DNA of 64,000 nt from Acidocella aquatica. Its GTDB lineage: Bacteria > Pseudomonadota > Alphaproteobacteria > Acetobacterales > Acetobacteraceae. The stretch is from NCBI RefSeq assembly GCF_030160635.1, contig NZ_BSOS01000065.1:62001-126000 (forward strand), written 5' to 3'. Positions 10,382 to 22,981 of this stretch are shown here, piece after piece. Every line of letters begins with the position of its first letter. Position 1 is the stretch's first letter. Under the pieces are notes generated by a model, which ran no database searches, had not been told where the DNA came from, and saw only the letters and a list, made by a program, of their open reading frames with translations. The translations under genes and the position numbers were made by a program.

Positions 10382-11524
10382 GTGTTATATACAAGAGACT
10401 ACGTAAACGACGCCGCGCCGCAGAAGGACGCTGAAACCGATTTCGGCCAGCAAAGACAGAAATATGAGCCCGCGAGGCGCAAGCCGCTTTCGATCGGCAT
10501 TATTCTCGCACCCAACTTCACGCTCTCGGCGCTATCGCTGTTCGTGGACACGCTGCGCCTGAGCGCCGACGAGGCCGATCGCTCGCGCCCGATCGGTTGC
10601 AACTGGGCGGTGTTGGCCAGCCGCTCCGAGACGATCCGCTCCAGCTGCGGCGTGCAGGTGAACCGCACCAGCGCGTTCAGGAATCCCAAGGAGTTTGACT
10701 ATATCGCGGTGATCGGCGGCACGCTGCACAATGGGCAGGAGACCGACGAGGAAACGGTGGCCTATCTGCATCAGGCGGCAAAGCTGAATGTGAACCTGAT
10801 CGGCATCTGCACGGGAAGTTTCATTCTGAGCCGCATCGGGCTCATGAAAAACCGGAGCAGCTGCGTAAGCTGGCTGCATTATCAGGATTTTTGCGAGGAG
10901 TTTCCAGACCAGAAGGTCTCCGCGGACCGGCTGTTCGAGGTTGACGGCAACCGGATCACCTGCGCCGGCGGCGCGGCGGCGGCTGATCTCGCGGCATGGT
11001 TGATCGAGCGTCATCTCGGCCAGAGCACCGCGCAGAAGCCGCATCATGTGCTGTTGCTTGACCGGGTGCGCACGATCAGCTCCGTGCAGCCGCACCCGCC
11101 GATTGCTGAGGCCACGGTGAATGTGCGCATCCGCCGCGCGCTGCTGCTCATGGAGCAGCATCTCTCAAATCCGCTGCAGATCAGCAGCATCGCCGCCACG
11201 CTCTCGCTCTCCACGCGCCAGCTTGAGCGCTTGTTCCAGACCGAACTCTCAACCCGTCCCTCGACTTTCTACCGCGTGTTGCGGCTGCGCTATGCGCGCT
11301 GGCTGCTCACCAACACCAGCCGCTCGGTCACTGAAATCGCGCTGGATTCCGGCTTTTCGGATGGCGCGCATTTTTCCCGGCAGTTCAAGGCGGCGCACGG
11401 CTGCCCGCCTTCAAACATTCGCGCCAGCGCGGGACCTTTGCCAAATTCCGACAAAATTCCGCCAGTGCCGCCAGGGCTGTTGGACCAGCAATTGGTCGGG
11501 TGCGCCGGGTCGCGGGTTTTTTAA
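10382..11524 (+). CDS. GATase1-like AraC-family transcriptional regulator (first of two)
   Basis: A 380-residue regulator with an N-terminal DJ-1/PfpI (class I glutamine amidotransferase-like) ligand-sensing domain (~35-215) and two C-terminal AraC helix-turn-helices (~250-350; ISSIAATLSLSTRQLERLFQ and VTEIALDSGFSDGAHFSRQFK). The elbow Cys lies in LIGICTGSFILS. GTG at 10382 has GGAG about seven bases upstream. In pseudomonads this architecture is used by GbdR (betaine/dimethylglycine), SouR (sarcosine), CdhR (carnitine) and ArgR. Directly after sox-sdaA and before gbcA, a betaine- or sarcosine-responsive role is likely, but the ligand cannot be assigned from sequence. Confidence 0.85.
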   Translation: MLYTRDYVNDAAPQKDAETDFGQQRQKYEPARRKPLSIGIILAPNFTLSALSLFVDTLRLSADEADRSRPIGCNWAVLASRSETIRSSCGVQVNRTSAFRNPKEFDYIAVIGGTLHNGQETDEETVAYLHQAAKLNVNLIGICTGSFILSRIGLMKNRSSCVSWLHYQDFCEEFPDQKVSADRLFEVDGNRITCAGGAAAADLAAWLIERHLGQSTAQKPHHVLLLDRVRTISSVQPHPPIAEATVNVRIRRALLLMEQHLSNPLQISSIAATLSLSTRQLERLFQTELSTRPSTFYRVLRLRYARWLLTNTSRSVTEIALDSGFSDGAHFSRQFKAAHGCPPSNIRASAGPLPNSDKIPPVPPGLLDQQLVGCAGSRVF

Positions 11525-11553
11525 CTGATTTTCCGTCAATTTTGTCGGAAAAT
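11446..11553. promoter_or_regulatory. Inverted repeats in the gbcA upstream region, candidate activator or operator site
   Basis: TTCCGACAAAATT at about 11446-11458, inside the end of the regulator gene, recurs as its exact reverse complement at about 11538-11550. The second copy is itself part of an imperfect palindrome, ATTTTCCG...CGGAAAAT (about 11528-11553). The AT-rich stretch that follows lies about 85 bases upstream of the gbcA start. The symmetry and position suit a binding site for one of the AraC-type regulators. There is no T-tract in the plus direction, so a simple terminator is less likely. Confidence 0.45.
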
Positions 11554-11641
11554 AGAAAATATTTGGCCCAAAATCTAAAGACGAGCATGGCCGGGCGTTG
11601 CATGCTGCCAGTCATAAACACTCAAGCAGAAGGCCAATAAA

Positions 11642-12901
11642 ATGTCCGACGCCGCGATGACGAAGCTCAAGCATCTGGTACAAAACCGCCGCCCCTACCA
11701 CATGCTTGAGGCGCCGTTCTATACCGACCCTGATATTTTTAAGGCGGATATGGATCTGATTTTCAGGCGGCATTGGATTTTCGTGGGGCTGGAGCCGGAT
11801 GTGCCCGAGCCGGGCGATGTTATGAACGTCAAGATCGGCGATGCGTCCATTCTGATCGTGCGTGATGATGACAACAACATTCACGCGATGCACAATATCT
11901 GCCGGCACCGCGGCGCGGCTCTGGTGGTCGATGAAAAAACCAGCGTGGGGCGCCTGGTCTGCCCTTATCATTCCTGGACCTACGGGCTCGATGGCGCGTT
12001 GCTGCACGCGCAATATATGCCGGAGGATTTCGACGCCAGCTGCAGCGGGTTGCGCAAGGTTCACCTGCGTTCGGTCGAGGGCTTGCTGTTCATCTGCCTG
12101 GCGGAAAACCCGCCGGAGGATTTTGAGGAATTCGCAAAAACCGCCGGCCCCTACGTGGCGCCGCACGACATCGCCAATTGCAAGGTGGTGCATGAGAGCG
12201 ATCTGATCGAGCCGGGCAACTGGAAGCTTGCCGTGGAGAACAACCGCGAGTGCTACCATTGCTCGGCCAATCATCCCGAGTTGACGCAATCGATCTATGA
12301 GTTCGGCTTCGGCTTCGATGCAACCGAACATGACCCCTCCCGCCAGGCGCTGCGGCGCCATTATGAGGATATGGTTGAGAAAGATCTGGCGGCGTGGGAG
12401 GCGGCGGGCCTGCCCTCAGTTGAGAACAACCAGCGCCTGGAAGCGGTTTCGGGCTTTCGCGTCGGGCGTATGACGATGGATAAGGCGGGCGAATCTCAAA
12501 CGCTGGATACCAAGATCGCCTCCAAAAAACTGCTCGGAAATTTCACCGAGGCGCGGCTTGGCGATCTCTCGATCCACACCCAGCCCAACTCCTGGCATCA
12601 TCTGATGAGCGATCATATCGTCTCCTTCGCGGTGTTTCCGCTGAGCGCCAACCAGACCCTGGTGAAAACCAAATGGCTGGTGCACAAGGATGCGGTGGAA
12701 GGTGTTGATTACGACATGGAGAATCTCACGCGCGTGTGGAGCGAAACCAACGTGCAGGATAGCCGCCTGGTCGGGCTGAGCCAGCTCGGCGCGCAGAGTC
12801 CCGGCTATGTGCAGGGGCCGTATTCTAAACAGACGGAAGGGCAGGTGGAGCAGTTCGCCGCCTGGTACATCGCGCGGCTCAAGGCGCATCTCTGCGCATG
12901 A
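11642..12901 (+). CDS. gbcA: Glycine betaine monooxygenase, Rieske oxygenase subunit GbcA
   Basis: A 419-residue Rieske non-heme iron oxygenase that demethylates glycine betaine to dimethylglycine plus formaldehyde. The Rieske [2Fe-2S] ligands are CRHRGA (~89) and CPYHSWTYG (~109). The mononuclear iron site is in NNRECYHCSANHPEL (~200, His-x4-His). AGAAGG lies at good spacing before the ATG. It overlaps gbcB (ATGA). The pairing with an FNR-type reductase, the adjacent GATase1-AraC gene and the downstream dgc genes all match the betaine-demethylation islands of Pseudomonas. Confidence 0.93.
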   Translation: MSDAAMTKLKHLVQNRRPYHMLEAPFYTDPDIFKADMDLIFRRHWIFVGLEPDVPEPGDVMNVKIGDASILIVRDDDNNIHAMHNICRHRGAALVVDEKTSVGRLVCPYHSWTYGLDGALLHAQYMPEDFDASCSGLRKVHLRSVEGLLFICLAENPPEDFEEFAKTAGPYVAPHDIANCKVVHESDLIEPGNWKLAVENNRECYHCSANHPELTQSIYEFGFGFDATEHDPSRQALRRHYEDMVEKDLAAWEAAGLPSVENNQRLEAVSGFRVGRMTMDKAGESQTLDTKIASKKLLGNFTEARLGDLSIHTQPNSWHHLMSDHIVSFAVFPLSANQTLVKTKWLVHKDAVEGVDYDMENLTRVWSETNVQDSRLVGLSQLGAQSPGYVQGPYSKQTEGQVEQFAAWYIARLKAHLCA

Positions 12902-13989
12902 GAGCCGAGCATATCTTCAAGGACGATGCGGGCGGTACCTCGTCATTCTGGAGCGGCGAGGACGACAATACGCTGGTCTGCATCGGCACGCGCGAGGAGA
13001 CGCATGATGTTAAAACCTTCATCTTTGCGCCCAAGCGCCCAGCATTGTTTCATTTTCAACCCGGACAGTTCATCACGTTTGATTTCGTCATAGGCGATGC
13101 GGTGGTCAACCGCTGTTACACCATCGCCTCCTCGCCCACGCGCCCGCATGTGCTCAGCATCACGGTCAAGCGCGTGCCGGGCGGCCCGGTTTCCAACTGG
13201 CTGCATGAGACTATGTCCCCCGGCCAGGAGGTGAACGCCACAGGCGCATTGGGCAGTTTCAGCTACGCGCGCAATCCGGCTGAAAAATACCTGCTGCTTT
13301 CCGGCGGCTCGGGCATTACGCCGATGATGTCGATGGCGCGCGCGCAGTTTGACCTCGCCAGCGAGAGCGACATCGTCTTCATGCACCACGCGCGCACCCC
13401 GGCGGACATCATCTTCCGCCGTGAGTTGGAGTTGATGGAGGTTCATTCACGGAACTTCAAATTCATCCCGGTCTGCGAGGCCGACGCCAAATTCCACAGC
13501 TGGGGTGGACTGCGCGGGCGCATCAGCGCCGGAATGCTGAGCCTGGCCGTGCCCGATTGCGCCGAACGCGAGGTCTTTGTCTGCGGCCCGCCGGCCTATA
13601 TGCGCGCGGCCAAGGCGCTGCTGGAACAGCTCGATTTCAACATGGCGCACTATCACGAGGAGAGTTTTGATTTCGCCACGCTGGCGCAGGAGCCAGCGCC
13701 GGTGGCGCCGGTGCTGGCCGGCGGGGGTTCATATGAGGTCATGTTTGCCAAAAGCCAGCGCGCGGTTATCTGCCCCGCGCAAAGCACGGTGCTCGATGCG
13801 GCCCGCGCCGAGGGGATGCGCCTGCCGTCATCCTGCGCTAAGGGGCTGTGCGGCACATGCAAATCCCGGCTGCTTTCGGGCAAGGTGGAAATGTCGCATC
13901 AGGGCGGCATCCGCCAGCGCGAGATCGACCAGGGAATGATCTTGCTCTGCTGTTCCAAACCGCTGAGCGATCTGGTGATCGAACGATAA
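12898..13989 (+). CDS. gbcB: Glycine betaine monooxygenase, reductase subunit GbcB
   Basis: A 363-residue electron-transfer partner of GbcA. It has an FNR-like FAD-binding barrel (RCYTIASSP, ~77), an NAD(P)H domain (LLLSGGSGITPMMSMA, ~128) and a C-terminal plant-type [2Fe-2S] ferredoxin domain with CAKGLCGTCKSR (~310) and a final LLCCSKP Cys. It passes electrons from NAD(P)H to the Rieske cluster. It is translationally coupled to gbcA and is followed by a regulator gene after only three bases. Confidence 0.93.
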   Translation: MRAEHIFKDDAGGTSSFWSGEDDNTLVCIGTREETHDVKTFIFAPKRPALFHFQPGQFITFDFVIGDAVVNRCYTIASSPTRPHVLSITVKRVPGGPVSNWLHETMSPGQEVNATGALGSFSYARNPAEKYLLLSGGSGITPMMSMARAQFDLASESDIVFMHHARTPADIIFRRELELMEVHSRNFKFIPVCEADAKFHSWGGLRGRISAGMLSLAVPDCAEREVFVCGPPAYMRAAKALLEQLDFNMAHYHEESFDFATLAQEPAPVAPVLAGGGSYEVMFAKSQRAVICPAQSTVLDAARAEGMRLPSSCAKGLCGTCKSRLLSGKVEMSHQGGIRQREIDQGMILLCCSKPLSDLVIER

Positions 13990-13992
13990 GAC

Positions 13993-14961
13993 ATGGATCT
14001 GGCGTCACTTTCCCGGTTTGGATTTTTCACACTGCCTGACTATTCGATGATCGCGGTCACCAACGCCATCGAGGCGTGCCGCATGGCAAACCGCGTCGCC
14101 GGGCGCGAGGTTTATTCGTGGCAATTGCTGACGATGGATGGCGTGCCCTCAACCGCCAGCAACGGTCTTGCTCTGTCGCCGTGCATGCGGCTTGGTGCCG
14201 CGCCGCCGCCTGATGTTCTGTTCGTCTGCGGCGGCGTGCATGTGCGCGCGGCGGTGAAAAAACCAATGCTCGATATGTTGCGCCGCCAGGCCCGCCACGG
14301 CCTGCCGCTCGGCGCCCTCTGCACCGGCGCCTTCGCCCTTGCCGAGGCGGGGCTGCTCGAGGGCTACCGATGCGCCATCCATTGGGAAAATCTCCCCGCC
14401 AGCCGTGAAGAATTTTCAAAGACAGAGTTTGTTCCCGACCTTTTCGTGGTCGACCGTGACCGGATCACCTGCACCGGCGGCATCGCCCCGCTTGATATGA
14501 TGCTAAGCCTGATCCATGCCCGGCTGGGCCGCTCCTTCGCCGAGGAAGTTTCCGCCGCGTTCATTCACGAGCGCATGCGCATGAGCGGCGAGCGCCAGCC
14601 GCTGGCCGCGCATGACCGCGCCAGCTCCAGCCATCCGCTCCTGGCGCAGGCGGTGGCGCTGATCGAGGCAAATCTCGCCAACGATCTCCCGGCCTCTGAA
14701 ATCGCCGAACGGCTGAATGTCTCGCCCCGCCAGTTGCAGCGCTTCTTCAAGCGCCACATGGGCACCACGCTGGCGCATTTCGCACAGGAATTGCGCCTCA
14801 AGCGCGCCCAGCACCTGTTGCAGCAGACCGATTTGCGCATTACCGACGTCGCCTCGCTGTGCGGTTTTTCATCCGCCGCCTATTTTTCCTCCGCCTATGC
14901 GCGCTGTTTCGGTTACGCGCCCAGCCGCGAGAGCCATAAATCCTCCATCACCGGAGCATGA
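13993..14961 (+). CDS. GATase1-like AraC-family regulator, GbdR-like (second of two)
   Basis: A 322-residue regulator with an N-terminal DJ-1/PfpI sensor domain (~6-190; elbow Cys in LGALCTGAFALAEAG) and C-terminal AraC DNA-binding helices (SEIAERLNVSPRQLQRFFKRH and ITDVASLCGFSSAAYFSSAY). It lies three bases after gbcB, in the same operon, which makes it the stronger GbdR candidate: GbdR activates gbc, dgc and sox genes in response to glycine betaine and dimethylglycine. The N-terminal FFTLPDYSMIAVTNAIEACRMANR segment resembles the sensor domain of GbdR/CdhR-type proteins. The ligand is inferred from context. Confidence 0.85.
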   Translation: MDLASLSRFGFFTLPDYSMIAVTNAIEACRMANRVAGREVYSWQLLTMDGVPSTASNGLALSPCMRLGAAPPPDVLFVCGGVHVRAAVKKPMLDMLRRQARHGLPLGALCTGAFALAEAGLLEGYRCAIHWENLPASREEFSKTEFVPDLFVVDRDRITCTGGIAPLDMMLSLIHARLGRSFAEEVSAAFIHERMRMSGERQPLAAHDRASSSHPLLAQAVALIEANLANDLPASEIAERLNVSPRQLQRFFKRHMGTTLAHFAQELRLKRAQHLLQQTDLRITDVASLCGFSSAAYFSSAYARCFGYAPSRESHKSSITGA

Positions 14962-15066
14962 AATGCCATGCGTCGTGAATTCCCCTGGAAATGTCGCTTT
15001 CAGTAAAGTTACGCGTGACGAAAACGGACAGATTAGCCAACAACCAATATTCGATAAGAGATAAAT

Positions 15067-16038
15067 ATGACCTCCTTGCATCAAGACTCCATTGTCATCG
15101 ACGGTTTGATCATCGCCAAATGGGGGCGTGACGTTTTTGAGGATATGCGCAAAGGCGGGCTGACGGCCGCCAACTGCACCGTCTCGGTGTGGGAAGGCTT
15201 CCAGGCGACGGTTCAGAACATCGCTGGGATGAAGAAAATGATCCGCGAGAATGCTGATCTGCTGACCCTGGTGCGCAGCACCGCCGACATCACGCGCGCC
15301 AAGGCGGAGGGCAAGACCGGCATCATCCTGGGATTCCAGAATGCCCACGCGATCGAGGATCATCTCGGCTACATCGAGGCCTTCGCCGATATGGGCGTGC
15401 GGGTAATCCAGCTTTGTTATAACACGCAAAACCTCGTCGGCACCGGCTGTTACGAACGCGACGGCGGCCTCTCCGACTTTGGCCGCGAGGCGGTGGCCGA
15501 GTTGAACCGCACCGGCATCATGATTGACCTGTCGCATGTCGGCGCGAAAACCTCGGAGGAGACGATCCTCGAATCCAAGAAGCCGGTTTGCTATTCACAC
15601 TGCCTGCCCTCAGGGCTGAAGCAGCATCCTCGCAACAAATCCGACGAGCAGTTGCGCTTCATCGCCGATCATGGCGGCTTCGTTGGCGTCACGATGTTCG
15701 CGCCGTTTCTCAAGCGCGGGATCGAGGCAACGGTGGACGACTACATCGAGGCGATTGATTACGTCATCAACATTGTTGGTGAGGACACCGTCGGCATCGG
15801 CACGGATTTCACCCAGGGCTACGGGCATGATTTCTTCGAGTGGCTGACGCATGATAAAGGGCGCCACCGCCGCCTCACCAATTTTGGCAAAATCGTCAAC
15901 CCTGAAGGCATCCGCACAATCGGCGAATTCCCCAACCTGACCGAGGCGATGGCCCGCGCGGGCTGGGGCGAGGCGCGTATCCGCAAGATCATGGGTGGCA
16001 ACTGGCAGCGCGTCTTCGGGCAGGTCTGGGGCGCTTAA
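15067..16038 (+). CDS. Membrane-dipeptidase-like protein (peptidase M19 fold) of the betaine cluster
   Basis: A 323-residue protein of the renal/membrane dipeptidase (M19) superfamily. DLSHVG (~157) and CYSHC (~176) keep the two histidines of one metal site. However, the N-terminal His-x-Asp metal motif of true dipeptidases is replaced by VIDGLIIAKWG, and the bridging Glu region reads GFQNAH instead of a Glu-Gly-Gly pattern. Classical dipeptidase activity is therefore doubtful. A dipeptidase-annotated gene also precedes dgcAB in Pseudomonas aeruginosa (PA5396), so a role in dimethylglycine metabolism is plausible but unknown. There is no signal peptide. Confidence 0.85.
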   Translation: MTSLHQDSIVIDGLIIAKWGRDVFEDMRKGGLTAANCTVSVWEGFQATVQNIAGMKKMIRENADLLTLVRSTADITRAKAEGKTGIILGFQNAHAIEDHLGYIEAFADMGVRVIQLCYNTQNLVGTGCYERDGGLSDFGREAVAELNRTGIMIDLSHVGAKTSEETILESKKPVCYSHCLPSGLKQHPRNKSDEQLRFIADHGGFVGVTMFAPFLKRGIEATVDDYIEAIDYVINIVGEDTVGIGTDFTQGYGHDFFEWLTHDKGRHRRLTNFGKIVNPEGIRTIGEFPNLTEAMARAGWGEARIRKIMGGNWQRVFGQVWGA

Positions 16039-16065
16039 GCTTTTTCATTCATCCGGGAGCCATTT

Positions 16066-16596
16066 ATGAATCCGCTTTTGCCAATTGATGTCGACGAGAA
16101 CACCGGCGTTTGGACCACCGACGGTCTGCCGATGCTCTATGTGCCGCGGCATTTTTTTACCAATAACCATCTCGCGGTGGAGGAAGCTCTCGGCCGCGCG
16201 CGTTACAGCGAAATTCTCTACCCCGCGGGCCACCGTTCAGCCTATTTCTGGTGCGAAAAAGAGGCGCAGACGCACGGGCTCTCTGGCCTCGCGGTGTTTG
16301 AACATTATCTCAAGCGTCTCTCCCAGCGCGGCTGGGGCCTGTTTGAATTCATCTCCGCCGATGCCGCCACCGGCCAGGCGCAGATTTCGCTGCGCAACTC
16401 TTCTTTCGTGTTGCAACAGCCCCAGGCGCACGGGCGGCTTTGTTACATGTTCGAGGGCTGGTTCGCCGGCGCCATGGATTTTGTCTCACAGCAGACGAAC
16501 CCGGCGTCGCCGGTCAAAACAAAAAGCATAGAGAGCCAGTGCGCGGCCGAAGGGCATGAATACTGCATCTTCACCGTCTCGCCGGTCACGCCCTGA
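16066..16596 (+). CDS. Small V4R/DUF5943-like protein of betaine demethylation islands
   Basis: A 176-residue soluble protein without signal peptide or membrane segment. The C-terminal half (SIESQCAAEGHEYCIFTVSP, ~152-171) resembles the Cys-containing end of V4R (4-vinyl-reductase) small-molecule-binding domains. The gene position, between the dipeptidase-like gene and dgcA, matches the conserved hypothetical PA5397 of Pseudomonas. Good RBS (GGGAG) before ATG 16066. Its conservation of position suggests an accessory role in dimethylglycine demethylation, for example ligand or corrinoid/flavin handling, but no activity can be assigned. Confidence 0.75.
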   Translation: MNPLLPIDVDENTGVWTTDGLPMLYVPRHFFTNNHLAVEEALGRARYSEILYPAGHRSAYFWCEKEAQTHGLSGLAVFEHYLKRLSQRGWGLFEFISADAATGQAQISLRNSSFVLQQPQAHGRLCYMFEGWFAGAMDFVSQQTNPASPVKTKSIESQCAAEGHEYCIFTVSPVTP

Positions 16597-16661
16597 TACA
16601 TTGCTGCAGGGCGCCCCGCGCGGGCGGATTGCCTTGCCCTGATATTTTCTGAGGATTTTTC

Positions 16662-18725
16662 ATGCGCTACCCAAACCTTCTTTCGCCTTTTGTGTTGAAC
16701 AAACTGACCCTGCGCAATCGCATCGTCAGCACGGCGCATGCTGAGGTTTATGCCGAACCGGGCGGCCTGCCCGGCGATCGCTACATCCGTTATTATGAGG
16801 AGAAGGCCAAGGGCGGTCTCGGTCTGGCCATCTGCGGCGGGTCCAGCCCGGTGTCGATCGACAGTCCCCAAGGCTGGTGGAAATCAGTCAACCTCTCCAA
16901 CGACCAGATCATCGAGCCCCTGGCCCGCCTGGCCGGCGCCATGCACCAGCACGGCGCGAAGATCATGATCCAGGCGACGCATATGGGCCGCCGCTCGGCT
17001 TTTCATGGGGAGCATTGGCCGCATCTGATGACGCCTTCCGGCGTGCGCGAGCCGGTGCATCGCGGCAACGCGAAAATCATCGAGGTTGAAGAAATCAACC
17101 GCATCATCAAGGATTTTGCCGCCGCCGCCCGGCGGGTGAAGGCCGCGGGCATGGATGGAATTGAAATCTCCGCCGCCCATCAACATCTGATCGATCAGTT
17201 CTGGAGCCCGCGCACCAATTTCCGCACCGATGATTTCGGCGGCAGCCTGCAAAACCGCATGCGCTTTGGCCGCGAGGTGCTGAGCGCGGTCCGCGCCGAG
17301 GTGGGGGCAGATTTCGCCGTGGGCCTGCGCATGTGTGGCGACGAGTTCCACCCCGATGGCCTCGATCATGAAACATTGAAGGAAATCGCCCATGAAATGG
17401 TATCGAGCGGGCTGATCGATTTCCTCAGCGTGGTCGGCTCCGGGGCTGATACGCACAACACCCTGGCCAACTGCATGCCGCCGATGGCGCTGCCCCCTGA
17501 GCCTTTCGTGCATCTGGCGGCTGGCATCAAGGCGGTGGTGAACATTCCGGTGATGCACGCGCAGAGCATACGCGACGCCGGCCAGGCCGAGCGCCTGCTG
17601 GAGAGCGGCATGATCGACCTCGTCGGCATGACCCGCGCGCAGATCGCCGATCCGCACATGGCGATGAAAATCCGTGATGGGCGCGAGGATGAAATCAAGC
17701 AATGCGTCGGTGCGAATTACTGCATCGACCGGCAATATAACGGGCTGGACGTGCTATGCGTGCAAAACGCCGCCACCTCGCGCGAAGCCACAATGCCGCA
17801 TGTCATCGCCAAATCCGGCGGGCCGAAGCGCAAGGTCGTGGTGGTGGGCGGCGGCCCCGGCGGGCTGGAGGCGGCGCGGGTCGCGCGGCTGCGCGGGCAT
17901 GATGTGGTGCTCTTCGAGCGCGAATCCACTGTCGGCGGGCAGGTCAATCTCGCCGCGAAAGCGCCGCAGCGCGAGCAGATGGCGGGCATCATCCGCTGGT
18001 TTGACATGGAAACAACCCGCCTCGGCGTGGAGCGCCGCCTGGGCGTGGAAGCCACGGACGCGATGATCCTGGCGGAAAATCCCGACATCGTGGTCCTGGC
18101 CACGGGCGGTGCCAGCCATATGGGCCAGGTCGCGGGCTGGGGCGCTGCCTCCGGCCTATCTGTCAGCGCGTGGGATATTCTCTCAGGCCGCGCCGCCCCG
18201 GCGCAAAACGTGCTGGTGTATGATTCAATGAGCACCCACGCCGGCGCCGGCGTCGCTGACTTCCTGGCCACGCGCGGCAGCCGCGTCGAGATCGCGACGC
18301 CGGACGTGAAAATCGCCGATGATGTCGGCGGCACCACTTTCCCCATCTTCTACCGCCGCCTTTACGCGCTGGATGTGGTGATGACGCCAAACGTCTGGTT
18401 AGACGAGGTCTATCGCGAGGATGGCAGGCTGGTCGCCGTGTTGCGCAATGAATATACCGAGGTGCAGGAGGAGCGCGTGGTCGATCAGGTGGTGATCGAG
18501 AACGGCATCCTGCCCAACGACCAGCTCTATTGGGCGCTGAAGGAAAAATCCCTCAACCACGGCCAGACGGATATGGAAACGCTGTTCGCCGCGGCGCCGC
18601 AGCCCTCCTTGTCGCAGCCGCTGGGCGGCGGGCGCTTCCTGCTTTTCCGTGTGGGCGACTGCATCTCCCAGCATAACATCCATGGCGCGATCTATGATGC
18701 GCTGCGGCTGTGCAAGGATTTCTGA
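16662..18725 (+). CDS. dgcA: Dimethylglycine demethylase subunit DgcA (flavin/iron-sulfur oxidoreductase)
   Basis: A 687-residue protein of the trimethylamine-dehydrogenase/2,4-dienoyl-CoA-reductase family. An FMN-binding TIM barrel (~1-340) is followed by an iron-sulfur loop and two nucleotide-binding domains (RKVVVVGGGPGGLEAARVARLRG, ~388; a second at ~515). It oxidatively demethylates dimethylglycine to sarcosine together with DgcB. The cluster-binding loop reads CVGANYC...LCVQNA (~347), so the second Cys of the usual CxxC is Ala. GAGGA precedes the ATG at 16662. Gene order with dgcB and etfAB matches the Pseudomonas dgc locus. Confidence 0.9.
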   Translation: MRYPNLLSPFVLNKLTLRNRIVSTAHAEVYAEPGGLPGDRYIRYYEEKAKGGLGLAICGGSSPVSIDSPQGWWKSVNLSNDQIIEPLARLAGAMHQHGAKIMIQATHMGRRSAFHGEHWPHLMTPSGVREPVHRGNAKIIEVEEINRIIKDFAAAARRVKAAGMDGIEISAAHQHLIDQFWSPRTNFRTDDFGGSLQNRMRFGREVLSAVRAEVGADFAVGLRMCGDEFHPDGLDHETLKEIAHEMVSSGLIDFLSVVGSGADTHNTLANCMPPMALPPEPFVHLAAGIKAVVNIPVMHAQSIRDAGQAERLLESGMIDLVGMTRAQIADPHMAMKIRDGREDEIKQCVGANYCIDRQYNGLDVLCVQNAATSREATMPHVIAKSGGPKRKVVVVGGGPGGLEAARVARLRGHDVVLFERESTVGGQVNLAAKAPQREQMAGIIRWFDMETTRLGVERRLGVEATDAMILAENPDIVVLATGGASHMGQVAGWGAASGLSVSAWDILSGRAAPAQNVLVYDSMSTHAGAGVADFLATRGSRVEIATPDVKIADDVGGTTFPIFYRRLYALDVVMTPNVWLDEVYREDGRLVAVLRNEYTEVQEERVVDQVVIENGILPNDQLYWALKEKSLNHGQTDMETLFAAAPQPSLSQPLGGGRFLLFRVGDCISQHNIHGAIYDALRLCKDF

Positions 18726-18727
18726 GC

Positions 18728-20629
18728 ATGCACAGCCTGGATCATCTGGTGACGCTTTTCTTCTGGCTGGCCGTGGCGGCGCTGGCTTTCGGCACAATGC
18801 GGCGCGCGCGGCTGTGGCGGGCGGGGGCGGCGGCGCCGTTTAATTGGGCGCAGCTGCTCACCGTGCCCCGGCGTTATCTGGTCGATGTGCACCATGTGGT
18901 GGCGCGCGACCCGTATATCGCGCGCACGCACATGCTGGTGGCCGGTGGCGCCGTGGCGGCCATGGCGCTGGTGGCCCTCAATTACGGGCTGATGCTCTAT
19001 CGGCCGCTGCTGAACGGCGCGCTCGTGCTGGCGGCTGCGGTGATGCTTGGCGGCAGCTATCTGGTCTGGCAGCGCCGCCGCGCCCCGCTGCCGCGCCTCT
19101 CGGCCGGGCCCTGGAACCGTTTGCCCTACACGCTGGCGGCCTTCGCGTTCGGGCTGCTGGCCCTGGCGCTGCTGCCCTCCGCTTTGCTTTCAGGTTTTTT
19201 CGCGGCGCTCATCATGCTGGCGCTGCTGGCCGGCACGGCGGAGCTGGTGCTGGGTATCGGCACCGGCGGACCGATGAAACATGCGGTGGCGGGCGTGCTG
19301 CATCTGGCCTTCCATCCCCGCGCGGAGCGTTTCGCCCCCCGCGCGGAGCGTTTCGCCATGCGCTCCACCGCGCTGCGCCCGCTGGACCTCGCCGCCCCGG
19401 TGCTGGGCGTGGAAAAGCCAACGGATTTCCGCTGGAACCAGCTTCTCGGCTTCGATGCCTGCGTGCAATGCGGCAAATGCGAGGCCGCCTGCCCGGCCTT
19501 CGCCGCCGGTCAGCCGCTGAACCCGAAAAAATTCATTCAGGACATGGTGCTGGGCCTCTCTGGTGGCAGCGACGCGGCGTTTGCCGGCAGCCCCTATCCC
19601 GGCATCACCCTGGGCGGCCATTCCGGCGGCCCGGAGGAGCCGATACTCCCCGCGCTGCTCGCGCCGGAAACCCTCTGGTCCTGCACCACCTGCCGCGCCT
19701 GCGTGGAGGAGTGCCCGATGCAGATCGAACATGTCGACGCGATCATTGATCTGCGCCGCTTCCAGACCCTCGCGCGCGGCGCGCTGCCGGGCAAGGGGCC
19801 GGAGATGCTGGGCAACCTGCGCGAAACCGCAACGCAGGGCGGATATGACAATGCCGCCCGCTACCATTGGGCGGTGGATCTCAACGTCCGCCAGATCAGG
19901 CCGGGTGAATCGGTTGATGTGCTGCTGGTGGCGGGTGAGGGGGCGTTTGACATGCGCTACCAGCGCAGCCTGCGCGCCCTGGTGAAGCTCCTGCAGGCCG
20001 CCTCGGTGGATTTCGCGATCCTCGGCGCGCTGGAAGTAGACACCGGCGACACCGCGCGCCGCCTGGGCGATGAGGCAACCTTCCAGGCGCAGGCCGTGCG
20101 GTTGATCGCCACTTTGTCGACCCTGACCTTCGGGCGGATTCTCACCGCTGATCCGCATGTGTTCCACAGCCTCAAGAACGAATATCCGGCCCTGGGCGGG
20201 CACTTTACCGTGCTGCATCACACCGTCTTTCTGGCCGGGCTGGCCAGCAGCGGGCAGCTGAAGCTGGGCGCAACAAGCGAGACGCGCACCATTACCTATC
20301 ACGACCCCTGCTATCTCGGCCGCTACAATGGCGAGACCGAAGCACCCCGCGCCCTGCTGCGCCAGATCGGCGTGCGCCTGACCGAGATGGAACGCTCGGG
20401 CCTGCGCGGCCGCTGTTGCGGCGGCGGTGGCGGCGCGCCGTTGACTGACATCCCCGGCACTCAACGCATCCCCGATATCCGCATCGCCGACGCCCGGGCC
20501 ACCGGCGCCGGGCTGGTGGCGGTGGCCTGCCCCGGATGCACCGCGATGCTGGAAGGCGTCGTCGGCCCCAGGCCGGAAGTTATCGATGTGGCGGAGCTGC
20601 TCGCCGCCGCGCTGGAGGGCCAGGCATGA
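18728..20629 (+). CDS. dgcB: Dimethylglycine demethylase subunit DgcB (membrane Fe-S oxidoreductase)
   Basis: A 633-residue protein. The N-terminal third has several hydrophobic segments (~6-25, ~75-95, ~100-117, ~140-175). Two 4Fe-4S motifs follow, CVQCGKCEAACPAF (~245) and CTTCRACVEECPMQ (~325), and then CCG-type heterodisulfide-reductase-like motifs (HDPCYLGRYN, RCCGGGGG, ACPGC). It should carry electrons between DgcA, EtfAB and the membrane quinone pool. ATG 18728 has AAGGA upstream; an in-frame GTG at 18710 would add six residues and overlap dgcA. The end overlaps etfA by four bases. Confidence 0.9.
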   Translation: MHSLDHLVTLFFWLAVAALAFGTMRRARLWRAGAAAPFNWAQLLTVPRRYLVDVHHVVARDPYIARTHMLVAGGAVAAMALVALNYGLMLYRPLLNGALVLAAAVMLGGSYLVWQRRRAPLPRLSAGPWNRLPYTLAAFAFGLLALALLPSALLSGFFAALIMLALLAGTAELVLGIGTGGPMKHAVAGVLHLAFHPRAERFAPRAERFAMRSTALRPLDLAAPVLGVEKPTDFRWNQLLGFDACVQCGKCEAACPAFAAGQPLNPKKFIQDMVLGLSGGSDAAFAGSPYPGITLGGHSGGPEEPILPALLAPETLWSCTTCRACVEECPMQIEHVDAIIDLRRFQTLARGALPGKGPEMLGNLRETATQGGYDNAARYHWAVDLNVRQIRPGESVDVLLVAGEGAFDMRYQRSLRALVKLLQAASVDFAILGALEVDTGDTARRLGDEATFQAQAVRLIATLSTLTFGRILTADPHVFHSLKNEYPALGGHFTVLHHTVFLAGLASSGQLKLGATSETRTITYHDPCYLGRYNGETEAPRALLRQIGVRLTEMERSGLRGRCCGGGGGAPLTDIPGTQRIPDIRIADARATGAGLVAVACPGCTAMLEGVVGPRPEVIDVAELLAAALEGQA

Positions 20630-21747
20630 ACCAGGAGCGTAAACGTCTCGACCCCCGCCGCCCCTTCGTGCTGAGCCCGGCCGGCCTGCGCCGGATCATC
20701 CTTGGCGCCACCGGCGGGTTTGATGCCTCGCTGCTGGCCGCGCCCGCGCACACGCCCGCGGCCAAACCGCTGCGCCTGAAGGGGGATCCTGCCGGGTATC
20801 TGCTGGTCGCGGCGCACAGCCAGCGCGGCATGCTCGATGCGCACGCCCACCAGGCCATCGCCGCCGCCGCATTGCTGGCAAGCCCGCAACAGGCGGTCGC
20901 CGTGCTGGTGTTCGGCGGTTTGAATGAAGATCTGCGCGCGTATGGCGCTGATCTGGTGGCGGTGCTGCCCGGCGCCGATGAGCAGGGCTTCGCGCCGGAG
21001 CAGGAGCTAGCCTCGCTGTGCGAATTTGTCACCCGCTATGCGCCCGCGCATGTGTTCATGCCTGATAACGATATCGGTGATGGCGATCTCGGCCGCCGCC
21101 TCGCCGTCCACCTGGAGGCGGAGGTTGCCACCCATGTGGTGGAGCTCAAACCCGGCGCGGTGGCGATGTACTGGCAGGGCGGCGCCGCGCTGGCGCGCGG
21201 ACCTATGCCCCTGGTGGTGCTGATCGCCCCTGATGTGGTGGAAACCGGCCTGCCGTTTTCCGGCGCGGGTGAAACCGTGGCGCCACCCGCCGCTCAGGCG
21301 CCGCCGGGCCGCTATCAGAACCGCGGCCTGCGCGAAATCGCCGCCTCCGCCTTGGCGCTGGAGGAGGCGGATTTCATCGTCGCCGCCGGCAACGGCGTGG
21401 CCGATATTCCAACGCTGGAGGCCGTGGCCGCCGCCTTCGGTGCCGCCGTGGGAGCCAGCCGCGTGGCGGTGGACGAAGGCAAATTCACCCGCGACAAGCA
21501 GATCGGCGCCACCGGCAAGACCGTGAGCGCCAGCACCTACCTTGCCGTCGGCATCTCCGGCGCGGTGCAACATCTGCAGGGGATCAAAGCCTGCCGCCAC
21601 GTCATCGCCATCAACAGCGACGCCAGCGCGCCAATCACCAAACGCGCGGATCTGAGCGTCGTCGGCGATGCCCAGGAGGTGATGACGGCGCTGCTGGCCG
21701 AGCTGGCGCAGCGCAACTGGCCTGATACCGCGCGGGAGAGCGTATGA
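20626..21747 (+). CDS. etfA: Electron transfer flavoprotein alpha subunit, dgc-linked
   Basis: A 373-residue EtfA-like protein. The C-terminal FAD-binding signature is clear (~245-340: NGVADIPTLEAVAAAFG, VDEGKFTRDKQIGATGKTVS, AVGISGAVQHLQGIK). The ATG at 20626 overlaps the end of dgcB (ATGA); a longer frame upstream would run far into dgcB. The N-terminal extension (~80 residues) is longer than in housekeeping EtfA, as in the dgc-associated ETF of Pseudomonas. It accepts electrons from dimethylglycine or sarcosine demethylation and is coupled to etfB by ATGATG. Confidence 0.88.
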   Translation: MNQERKRLDPRRPFVLSPAGLRRIILGATGGFDASLLAAPAHTPAAKPLRLKGDPAGYLLVAAHSQRGMLDAHAHQAIAAAALLASPQQAVAVLVFGGLNEDLRAYGADLVAVLPGADEQGFAPEQELASLCEFVTRYAPAHVFMPDNDIGDGDLGRRLAVHLEAEVATHVVELKPGAVAMYWQGGAALARGPMPLVVLIAPDVVETGLPFSGAGETVAPPAAQAPPGRYQNRGLREIAASALALEEADFIVAAGNGVADIPTLEAVAAAFGAAVGASRVAVDEGKFTRDKQIGATGKTVSASTYLAVGISGAVQHLQGIKACRHVIAINSDASAPITKRADLSVVGDAQEVMTALLAELAQRNWPDTARESV

Positions 21748-22508
21748 TGCCCCCTCAACTCAAAATCGCGGCCCTGGTCTCCGTGGGGCGCAACCCGGCC
21801 AGCGGCGCGCCGCGCGCCGCGCGCAACGATGTGCTGGCGCTCGATGCCGCCCTGGCCCTCGCGCCGGAGGTCAGCGTGCTGCATGCGGGCGATGCCGCCC
21901 CCGCGCTGTATGATTACCTGGCCTACGGCGCCGCCAATGTGGAGGTGCTGCCCCTGCCGGCCGGGGCTGATGCGCTGGCGCCGCTGGCGGCGCGTGTTGC
22001 CGGGTATGATCTCATCCTGTGCGGCCAGCGCGCCGAGGCGGGGCAGGGCAGCGGCACGCTCCCCTACCGGCTGGCGAAGGCCCTGAACATGCCAGTGGTG
22101 AGCGCGGCGTTGGAGATCACCCTGCTGGGAGACGAGGCGGAGATTGTGCAGTTTCTGCCCAAGGGCCAGCGCCGGGTCGTGCGCGTCAGCCTCCCGGCTG
22201 TCATCGCGCTGCACCCGCTGGCCCCGCGCGCCCCGCGCTATGTGTATGCAAGCCTGCGCGCCGGGCGCCTGCTGAGCGCGCCGGCGCTGGTTGCGGCGCC
22301 CTTGCCGGCCAGCCCCTGGCAGAGCGAACCCGCGGTCAAAAAACCCCAGAGGCTCAAGCCGCTTGAAACCCGCCAAGGCCATGCAAGGCTGCTGGGCGCC
22401 ATCGCCACCGAGAGCAAGGGTGGCGCGCTCGTGCGCGAGGGCAGCGCGGCCGAAAAAGCGCGCGCGATACTGGATTATCTGCGCACCAACCGGCTGATCG
22501 AATTCTAG
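21744..22508 (+). CDS. etfB: Electron transfer flavoprotein beta subunit, dgc-linked
   Basis: A 254-residue EtfB-like protein. It shows the N-terminal KIAALVSVGRNPASGAPRAARNDVLALDAAL region and the nucleotide-binding GYDLILCGQRAEAGQGSGTLPYRLAKAL segment (~90-115), and lies directly after etfA. The pair forms an FAD heterodimer linking DgcAB (or the second dehydrogenase at 26617) to the respiratory chain. It ends the tightly packed dgc operon; a 62-base gap follows. Confidence 0.88.
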   Translation: MMPPQLKIAALVSVGRNPASGAPRAARNDVLALDAALALAPEVSVLHAGDAAPALYDYLAYGAANVEVLPLPAGADALAPLAARVAGYDLILCGQRAEAGQGSGTLPYRLAKALNMPVVSAALEITLLGDEAEIVQFLPKGQRRVVRVSLPAVIALHPLAPRAPRYVYASLRAGRLLSAPALVAAPLPASPWQSEPAVKKPQRLKPLETRQGHARLLGAIATESKGGALVREGSAAEKARAILDYLRTNRLIEF

Positions 22509-22570
22509 ATGGCACTCATCACTCCCGCATATGATATTGCCTCGCAACGATACGCGCATGGCTCGCCAGC

Positions 22571-22981
22571 ATGAACCAGACCAGCCCCATCAGAGACTCG
22601 CGGCTTTTTCGCCGCATGTTTGTCAGAGACCTGGTGCTCGATGCCTCGATCGGCGTTTACGCGCATGAGCATGAGACGCTCCAGCGCATCCGCATCAATC
22701 TGGATCTCTCCGTGGTTGACGATGGCGGCGCGCATCGCTCGCACTGCGTGGCCGGGCCTGACGATCTGGCCCGCGTGGTGGACTACGAAGCGATCGTGGT
22801 GCGCGCGCGTGAAATTGTGAAATCAGGGCATGTTCAGCTGGTTGAAACGCTTGCCGAGCGTTTGGCGCGAACATGTCTGGATGATGCCCGGGTGTTGAAC
22901 GTCCGGGTACGCGTGGAGAAGCTCGATGTATTCGTTGATGCGGCATCAACGGGTGTTGAGATCGAGCGCTGGAATTCCTGA
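22571..22981 (+). CDS. folB: Dihydroneopterin aldolase-like protein (FolB family)
   Basis: A 136-residue protein with the FolB/tunnelling fold pattern: FVRDLVLDASIGVYAHEHETLQRIRINLDL (~17-46), DYEAIV (~74), HVQLVETLAERLARTCL (~88-104) and RVRVEKLDVF at the end. FolB makes 6-hydroxymethyl-dihydropterin in folate synthesis. It sits at the end of a pathway that consumes tetrahydrofolate (SoxA), and other folate-synthesis genes are absent, so it may be a dedicated paralogue. No strong RBS is visible before ATG 22571. Confidence 0.8.
   Translation: MNQTSPIRDSRLFRRMFVRDLVLDASIGVYAHEHETLQRIRINLDLSVVDDGGAHRSHCVAGPDDLARVVDYEAIVVRAREIVKSGHVQLVETLAERLARTCLDDARVLNVRVRVEKLDVFVDAASTGVEIERWNS

Follow-up and report, generated by a model that had tools for sequence, protein, structure and literature searches.

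What is done by the two genes that accompany dgcAB? As an osmolyte and a nutrient, glycine betaine is of major importance, and the pathway that demethylates it through GbcAB, DgcAB and SoxBDAG is regarded as complete; yet two extra genes with no assigned role turn up in nearly every dgcAB cluster that was examined. In Acidocella aquatica the first of them occupies positions 15067–16038 on the plus strand of the window, i.e., the whole 64,000-nucleotide stretch that was analysed (the features from gbcA to etfB given with coordinates below lie on the same strand). It encodes a 323-residue M19-fold protein devoid of the alpha-metal site, recognised by Pfam match, alignments, AF2 model and structure search, which we label M19L and which is an orthologue of PDB 2i5g. 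Where the literature mentions the gene (including PMC12093977 and PMC8079746), it is named solely dipeptidase or pepD. The data presented below indicate that M19L is no decaying dipeptidase but a catabolic protein that is intact and under selection, and that it very likely has an undescribed job among the enzymes demethylating the breakdown products of glycine betaine.

Gene Cluster in the Window

The genes are arranged in the order soxA-soxG-sdaB-regulator-gbcA-gbcB-regulator-M19L-DUF5943-dgcA-dgcB-etfA-etfB-folB, the names being given partly by synteny. The GbcA/GbcB-like betaine monooxygenase pair (11642–13989) scores below the NCBIfam equivalog cut-offs for GbcA and GbcB, and a GbdR-like AraC-family regulator (13993–14961) lies directly upstream of M19L. 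Beyond DUF5943 follow DgcA, the OYE-type subunit of dimethylglycine demethylase (16662–18725), recognised by Pfam and the orthologue pattern and named by synteny with published clusters, a DgcB-like Fe-S protein (18710–20629), assigned by comparison with related loci, and EtfA-like (20536–21747) and EtfB-like (21744–22508) proteins, both named by synteny; the etfA reading frame overlaps dgcB and its true start is probably later. DUF5943 is present in 77 and dgcA in 75 of 80 related loci. Two GbdR-like AraC regulators stand on either side of gbcAB (10382–14961), and a folB-like dihydroneopterin aldolase gene after etfB (22571–22981) is found, among the 80 related loci, only in the nearest two (L001, L002).

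The order M19L-DUF5943-dgcAB has also been reported in P. aeruginosa and Vibrio natriegens (PMC12093977), which bears out an earlier sequence-only reading of this DNA that placed a dipeptidase-annotated gene before dgcAB in Pseudomonas. In several Pseudomonas the M19L gene and its neighbour are induced together with the dgc genes (PMC8079746). Five genomes of the same family in our sample lack DUF5943, a close M19L and a close DgcA, and the best matches are mostly beta- and gammaproteobacterial; hence the cluster (11642–22981) may have been acquired horizontally.

Altered Metal Site of M19L

The Pfam profile Peptidase_M19 (PF01244) matches M19L with 315 bits against a cut-off of 26, which places the protein in the family by fold and sequence. 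The match begins only at profile position 36, leaving the segment that holds the first ligands unmatched. For the comparison of residues, M19L was aligned to fragments of human DPEP1 and Sco3058, to L081, which is the canonical M19 protein encoded in its own genome, and to a further 68 nonredundant M19 proteins; DPEP1 numbering and residue roles (alpha- and beta-site ligands, bridging Glu, substrate Arg, catalytic Asp) are used in what follows. The His-x-Asp of M19 enzymes (H20, D22) is L14-x-I16 here (codons 15106–15114), Q91 (15337–15339) replaces the bridging Glu (E125), and Y118 (15418–15420) replaces the substrate-binding His152. Both beta-site histidines are kept as H157 (15535–15537) and H178 (15598–15600), equivalents of H198 and H219, as are the substrate-carboxylate Arg, R189 (15631–15633; R230), and the catalytic Asp, D247 (15805–15807; D288). 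All these residues, L14, I16, Q91, Y118, H157, H178, R189 and D247, are invariant in 36 M19L orthologues that are 76%–98% identical.

The replacement of HxD and the bridging Glu with retention of the two later histidines, as described in the sequence-only reading, is thus confirmed by alignment with M19 enzymes and by the invariance among orthologues. Its summary that half of the metal site had been lost was right about the loss but slightly understated it: the ligand positions read L-x-I, Q, H, H, so that three of five ligands including the bridging Glu are replaced, and H152 in addition. From the binuclear set (His-x-Asp, bridging Glu, His, His) two histidines alone are left. The same reading held M19L to be probably not a peptidase. 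With these ligands replaced, an ordinary binuclear M19 dipeptidase is indeed unlikely, but the wider claim is an inference, and R189, D247 and the two later histidines are retained in 69/69 M19 proteins. Other residues conserved in the sequences, C37, C117, C128, C179, H187, H262 and D263, are candidate substitute ligands.

Chance or sequencing error was considered as the source of the substitutions and ruled out by their invariance over the 36 orthologues. The same invariance argues against recent decay, which is ruled out for this single gene by the conservation of M19L and by the clade-wide occurrence of the altered state.

The AF2 model of M19L is a TIM barrel (mean pLDDT 83.5, pTM 0.86). 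In the model, the altered and kept site residues are located at or beside the C-terminal ends of strands 11–17, 84–92, 111–117, 152–157, 174–179 and 242–250, which is where M19 enzymes keep their ligands. Loops 119–130 and 258–271 contain many invariant residues, yet are modelled with pLDDT below 50; perhaps they become ordered on binding a ligand or partner.

Altered Site across the M19 Family

The equivalents of His198, His219, Arg230 and Asp288 are kept in all 69 nonredundant M19 proteins; being common to the whole set, they may be ancestral rather than selected for the role of M19L. Gln takes the place of Glu125 in 58 of the 69, Tyr that of His152 in 55 of these 58, and an aligned His20 occurs in none of them (0/58), which indicates that the alpha site and the bridging Glu are lost together. 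L081 keeps His20, Glu125 and His152, its Asp22 falling in a gapped part of the alignment. In the tree, the altered state fills large M19 clades far past the dgc-linked group; long branches and midpoint rooting make the exact number of its origins uncertain. The altered site is therefore not peculiar to M19L or dgcAB but is the mark of a large M19 clade whose members occur in catabolic clusters of several kinds; for this whole clade the automatic names "dipeptidase" and "membrane dipeptidase" are probably wrong.

Two further variants were observed. Six M19 proteins (L160, L201, L204, L206, L207 and L213) have an apparent His-x-Cys (e.g., DAHACLP) and Tyr for His152, with His20 and the bridging Glu kept. 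A second M19 class devoid of HxD (IDGLQYxNWS), approximately 32%–37% identical to M19L (L144, L145, L146, L148, L154, L155, L161), is encoded near ALDH, BCCT or other transporter, MttB or DUF3726 genes, and these neighbours suggest the catabolism of other methylated compounds. Homarine catabolism was looked for as the home of the 36%-identity M19 class, and no support was found.

Co-Occurrence with DUF5943 and Sarcosine Metabolism

Among 398 Pseudomonadota genomes, with M19L counted at no less than 61% identity and DgcA at no less than 60%, DUF5943 was found in 31 and M19L in 30, all 30 lying inside the 31; each of the 27 genomes with DgcA at that threshold carries both. The Fisher tests of co-occurrence gave p values of ~1e-44 and ~1e-38 while ignoring the relatedness of the genomes. 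The association holds even in G350, in which M19L lies behind soxBDAG, around 460 kb from DUF5943-dgcA; the one genome with DUF5943 and no close M19L is G071. M19L is also highly conserved: its median identity to orthologues is 78%, against 81% for DgcA, 56% for GbcA, 55% for EtfA and 49% for SoxA from the same loci. Genome context thus links M19L tightly to DUF5943 and to dimethylglycine and sarcosine oxidation.

The presence of M19L in 27/27 genomes with a close DgcA and the usual order M19L-DUF5943-dgcAB would fit a dedicated accessory of the DgcAB dehydrogenase, engaged in its assembly or cofactor insertion. We consider this highly improbable, as the pair also occurs where DgcAB does not. 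GbcA and a close DgcA were looked for and not found in three genomes, G287 and G289 (two species) and Castellaniella (G398, L061), where M19L-DUF5943 is accompanied by soxBDAG and an ABC importer of the Liv type; a GbdR-like regulator belongs to that locus in G287 and Castellaniella and is absent from the stretch read of G289. Elsewhere M19L stands beside soxBDAG (G350, Vogesella, Pseudogulbenkiania, Azospirillum) or beside transporters (Salipiger, Paroceanicella, Paracoccus, Caballeronia), and a second M19L copy in G324 adjoins a predicted MFS transporter. In Methylobacterium an importer and M19L-DUF5943 are joined by a gene for a SolA-like (monomeric sarcosine-oxidase-like) oxidase, while Azospirillum has, besides soxBDAG-M19L, the arrangement TRAP-M19L-FAD oxidoreductase-eutBC (in Azospirillum brasilense). 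Some relatives have as neighbours oxidoreductases and importers that show no evident connection to sarcosine. The arrangement of importer and M19L suggests a catabolic enzyme.

DgcAB, SoxBDAG and the SolA-like oxidase, the neighbours of M19L across lineages, share a chemistry in which flavin oxidation could leave a by-product: the N-methylene iminium or 5-oxazolidinone of sarcosine or glycine, or another formaldehyde adduct. M19L might hydrolyse such a compound metal-free, in a lactonase-like manner, for which LigI, a metal-independent lactonase of COG3618, is a precedent in the superfamily. However, these adducts hydrolyse spontaneously in water, and neither the importer-only loci nor the eutBC locus of Azospirillum brasilense would be explained, so we regard a by-product hydrolase as unlikely.

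The sequence-only reading had suggested a role in N-methylglycine metabolism. The genome context upholds the tie to dimethylglycine and sarcosine catabolism but widens it, since the altered site occurs beyond M19L and dgcAB, and M19L is also found in genomes lacking DgcA and GbcA.

DUF5943, the Constant Partner of M19L

The second extra gene (16066–16596), overlooked in the sequence-only reading, is the constant partner of M19L. Its product matches Pfam PF19367 with 170.7 bits (cut-off 27) and is predicted, from its model, a fold search and motif alignment, to be a free-standing sensor fold of the MopR/DmpR/PoxR type. Fold comparison of the model (pLDDT 88.6) with the phenol-sensor domains of these proteins gave a Foldseek E value of 2e-9, TM 0.76 and Z 16–17; a profile search against PDB sequences returned nothing significant, so the relation comes from the fold search only. 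Of 34 DUF5943 sequences, 31 retain the V4R residues C126, E156, C159 and C167, and three gammaproteobacterial ones (L067, L076, L080) have lost this motif; the spacing of the four residues resembles that of the zinc site of MopR.

Of the 15 DUF5943 genes in the alphaproteobacterial genus of G071, 12 come immediately after an amidohydrolase gene and two adjoin M19L, hence the partner of DUF5943 is drawn from one or the other of two hydrolase families. This intact amidohydrolase has an HxH motif, and its closest solved relatives include Xaa-Pro dipeptidase and prolidase. At these loci (L152 6394–9115 in G071; L222–L233) the prolidase-like protein is 97%–100% identical between species and an FAA-hydrolase-family gene lies upstream.

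Since prolidases cut tertiary amides, this resemblance of the other DUF5943 partner, together with the M19 fold and the retained R189 and D247, could speak for M19L still being a dipeptidase, perhaps for sarcosine-containing dipeptides, with one metal at H157/H178/Q91. Such an activity seems rather improbable, as replacement of HxD is accompanied by that of the bridging Glu and H152, and the genome has a separate M19 protein, L081, with H, E and H in place. The sensor-type fold predicted for DUF5943 bears on the main rival to a hydrolase, a non-catalytic M19L that would serve as a sensor, scaffold or assembly factor, its barrel binding either some ligand or one of the possible partners DUF5943, DgcAB and SoxBDAG; CRMP/DPYSL proteins offer a parallel. 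The loss of three metal ligands is consistent with it, and low-confidence modelling of invariant loops is expected if ligand or partner orders them. We nevertheless find it doubtful: R189, D247 and both histidines are kept without exception, and an enzyme better fits both the copies that adjoin importers with no neighbouring oxidase and the alternation of DUF5943 partners between M19L and an intact hydrolase.

Proposed Function of M19L

Our preferred reading, held tentatively and at somewhat less than an even chance, is that M19L hydrolyses a small molecule in catabolism, with at most one metal, and thereby supplies N-methylglycine oxidation. In this inferred scheme, R189 would hold the carboxylate of the substrate, and D247 would activate water with the aid of H157 and H178, which would have one loosely bound metal or no metal at all. 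The substrate might be an N-methylglycine derivative, imported or intracellular, in the form of an amide, ester or cyclic compound, and its product would go on to DgcAB or to sarcosine oxidase. The DUF5943 protein may have this compound or a similar one as its ligand, and may assist or regulate M19L. We count in favour of the hydrolase the conservation close to that of DgcA, the co-occurrence, the soxBDAG and importer loci, the DUF5943-amidohydrolase pairing and the co-induction in Pseudomonas, although linkage to hydrolases and importers is no proof of hydrolysis. That a widespread M19-fold clade consists of metal-free or single-metal catalysts for N-methylated amino-acid derivatives, their dipeptidase site remodelled, which with a free-standing phenol-sensor-fold partner perform an unrecognised step of betaine and sarcosine catabolism, is possible but on balance questionable. 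With a structure already solved and hosts that are easy to handle, the function of M19L can be tested directly.

Comparison with Known Systems

The solved structure closest to the M19L model is PDB 2i5g, a P. aeruginosa "amidohydrolase" of 2006 (TM 0.95, Z 48.2), presumably PA5396. The two are 74%–77% identical over the full length, with nothing essential differing, and the aligned 2i5g sequence shows L-x-I, Q, Y, H, H, R and D at the site positions, just as M19L does. M19L thus belongs with 2i5g/PA5396 both by full-length identity with the same site residues and by its position before DUF5943-dgcAB; a literature search had no match for 2I5G and none for PA5396 with dipeptidase. The fold is known and already solved in 2i5g, and what is new is the variant site.

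Other solved M19 proteins follow at Z 33–37. The dipeptidases DPEP1 (1itq), Sco3058 (3id7) and GliJ (5lwz) share the fold (TM ~0.8, Z 36–37) and the H198, H219, R230 and D288 equivalents, but M19L differs in the replaced HxD, bridging Glu and H152 and in its catabolic gene cluster. Dihydroorotase, NagA and COG3618 are found near Z 17. NagA (N-acetylglucosamine-6-phosphate deacetylase) is a mononuclear beta-site amidohydrolase that lacks alpha-site ligands and keeps a Glu ligand; M19L retains both His but has Gln for Glu, and so departs from the NagA-type Glu/His/His site. The COG3618 members are structural neighbours with no sequence relation found. CRMP/DPYSL proteins, of amidohydrolase fold with no metal, and human DPEP3, an M19 protein, are also among the neighbours and are regarded as devoid of enzyme activity; they are eukaryotic, come from an unrelated context and have lost other residues. 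DUF5943, for its part, is predicted to share the fold of the aromatic-sensor domains of MopR, DmpR and PoxR and has the V4R Cys/Glu motif in 31 of 34 sequences, but is free-standing, carries no AAA+ or DNA-binding part and is 14%–20% identical to them.
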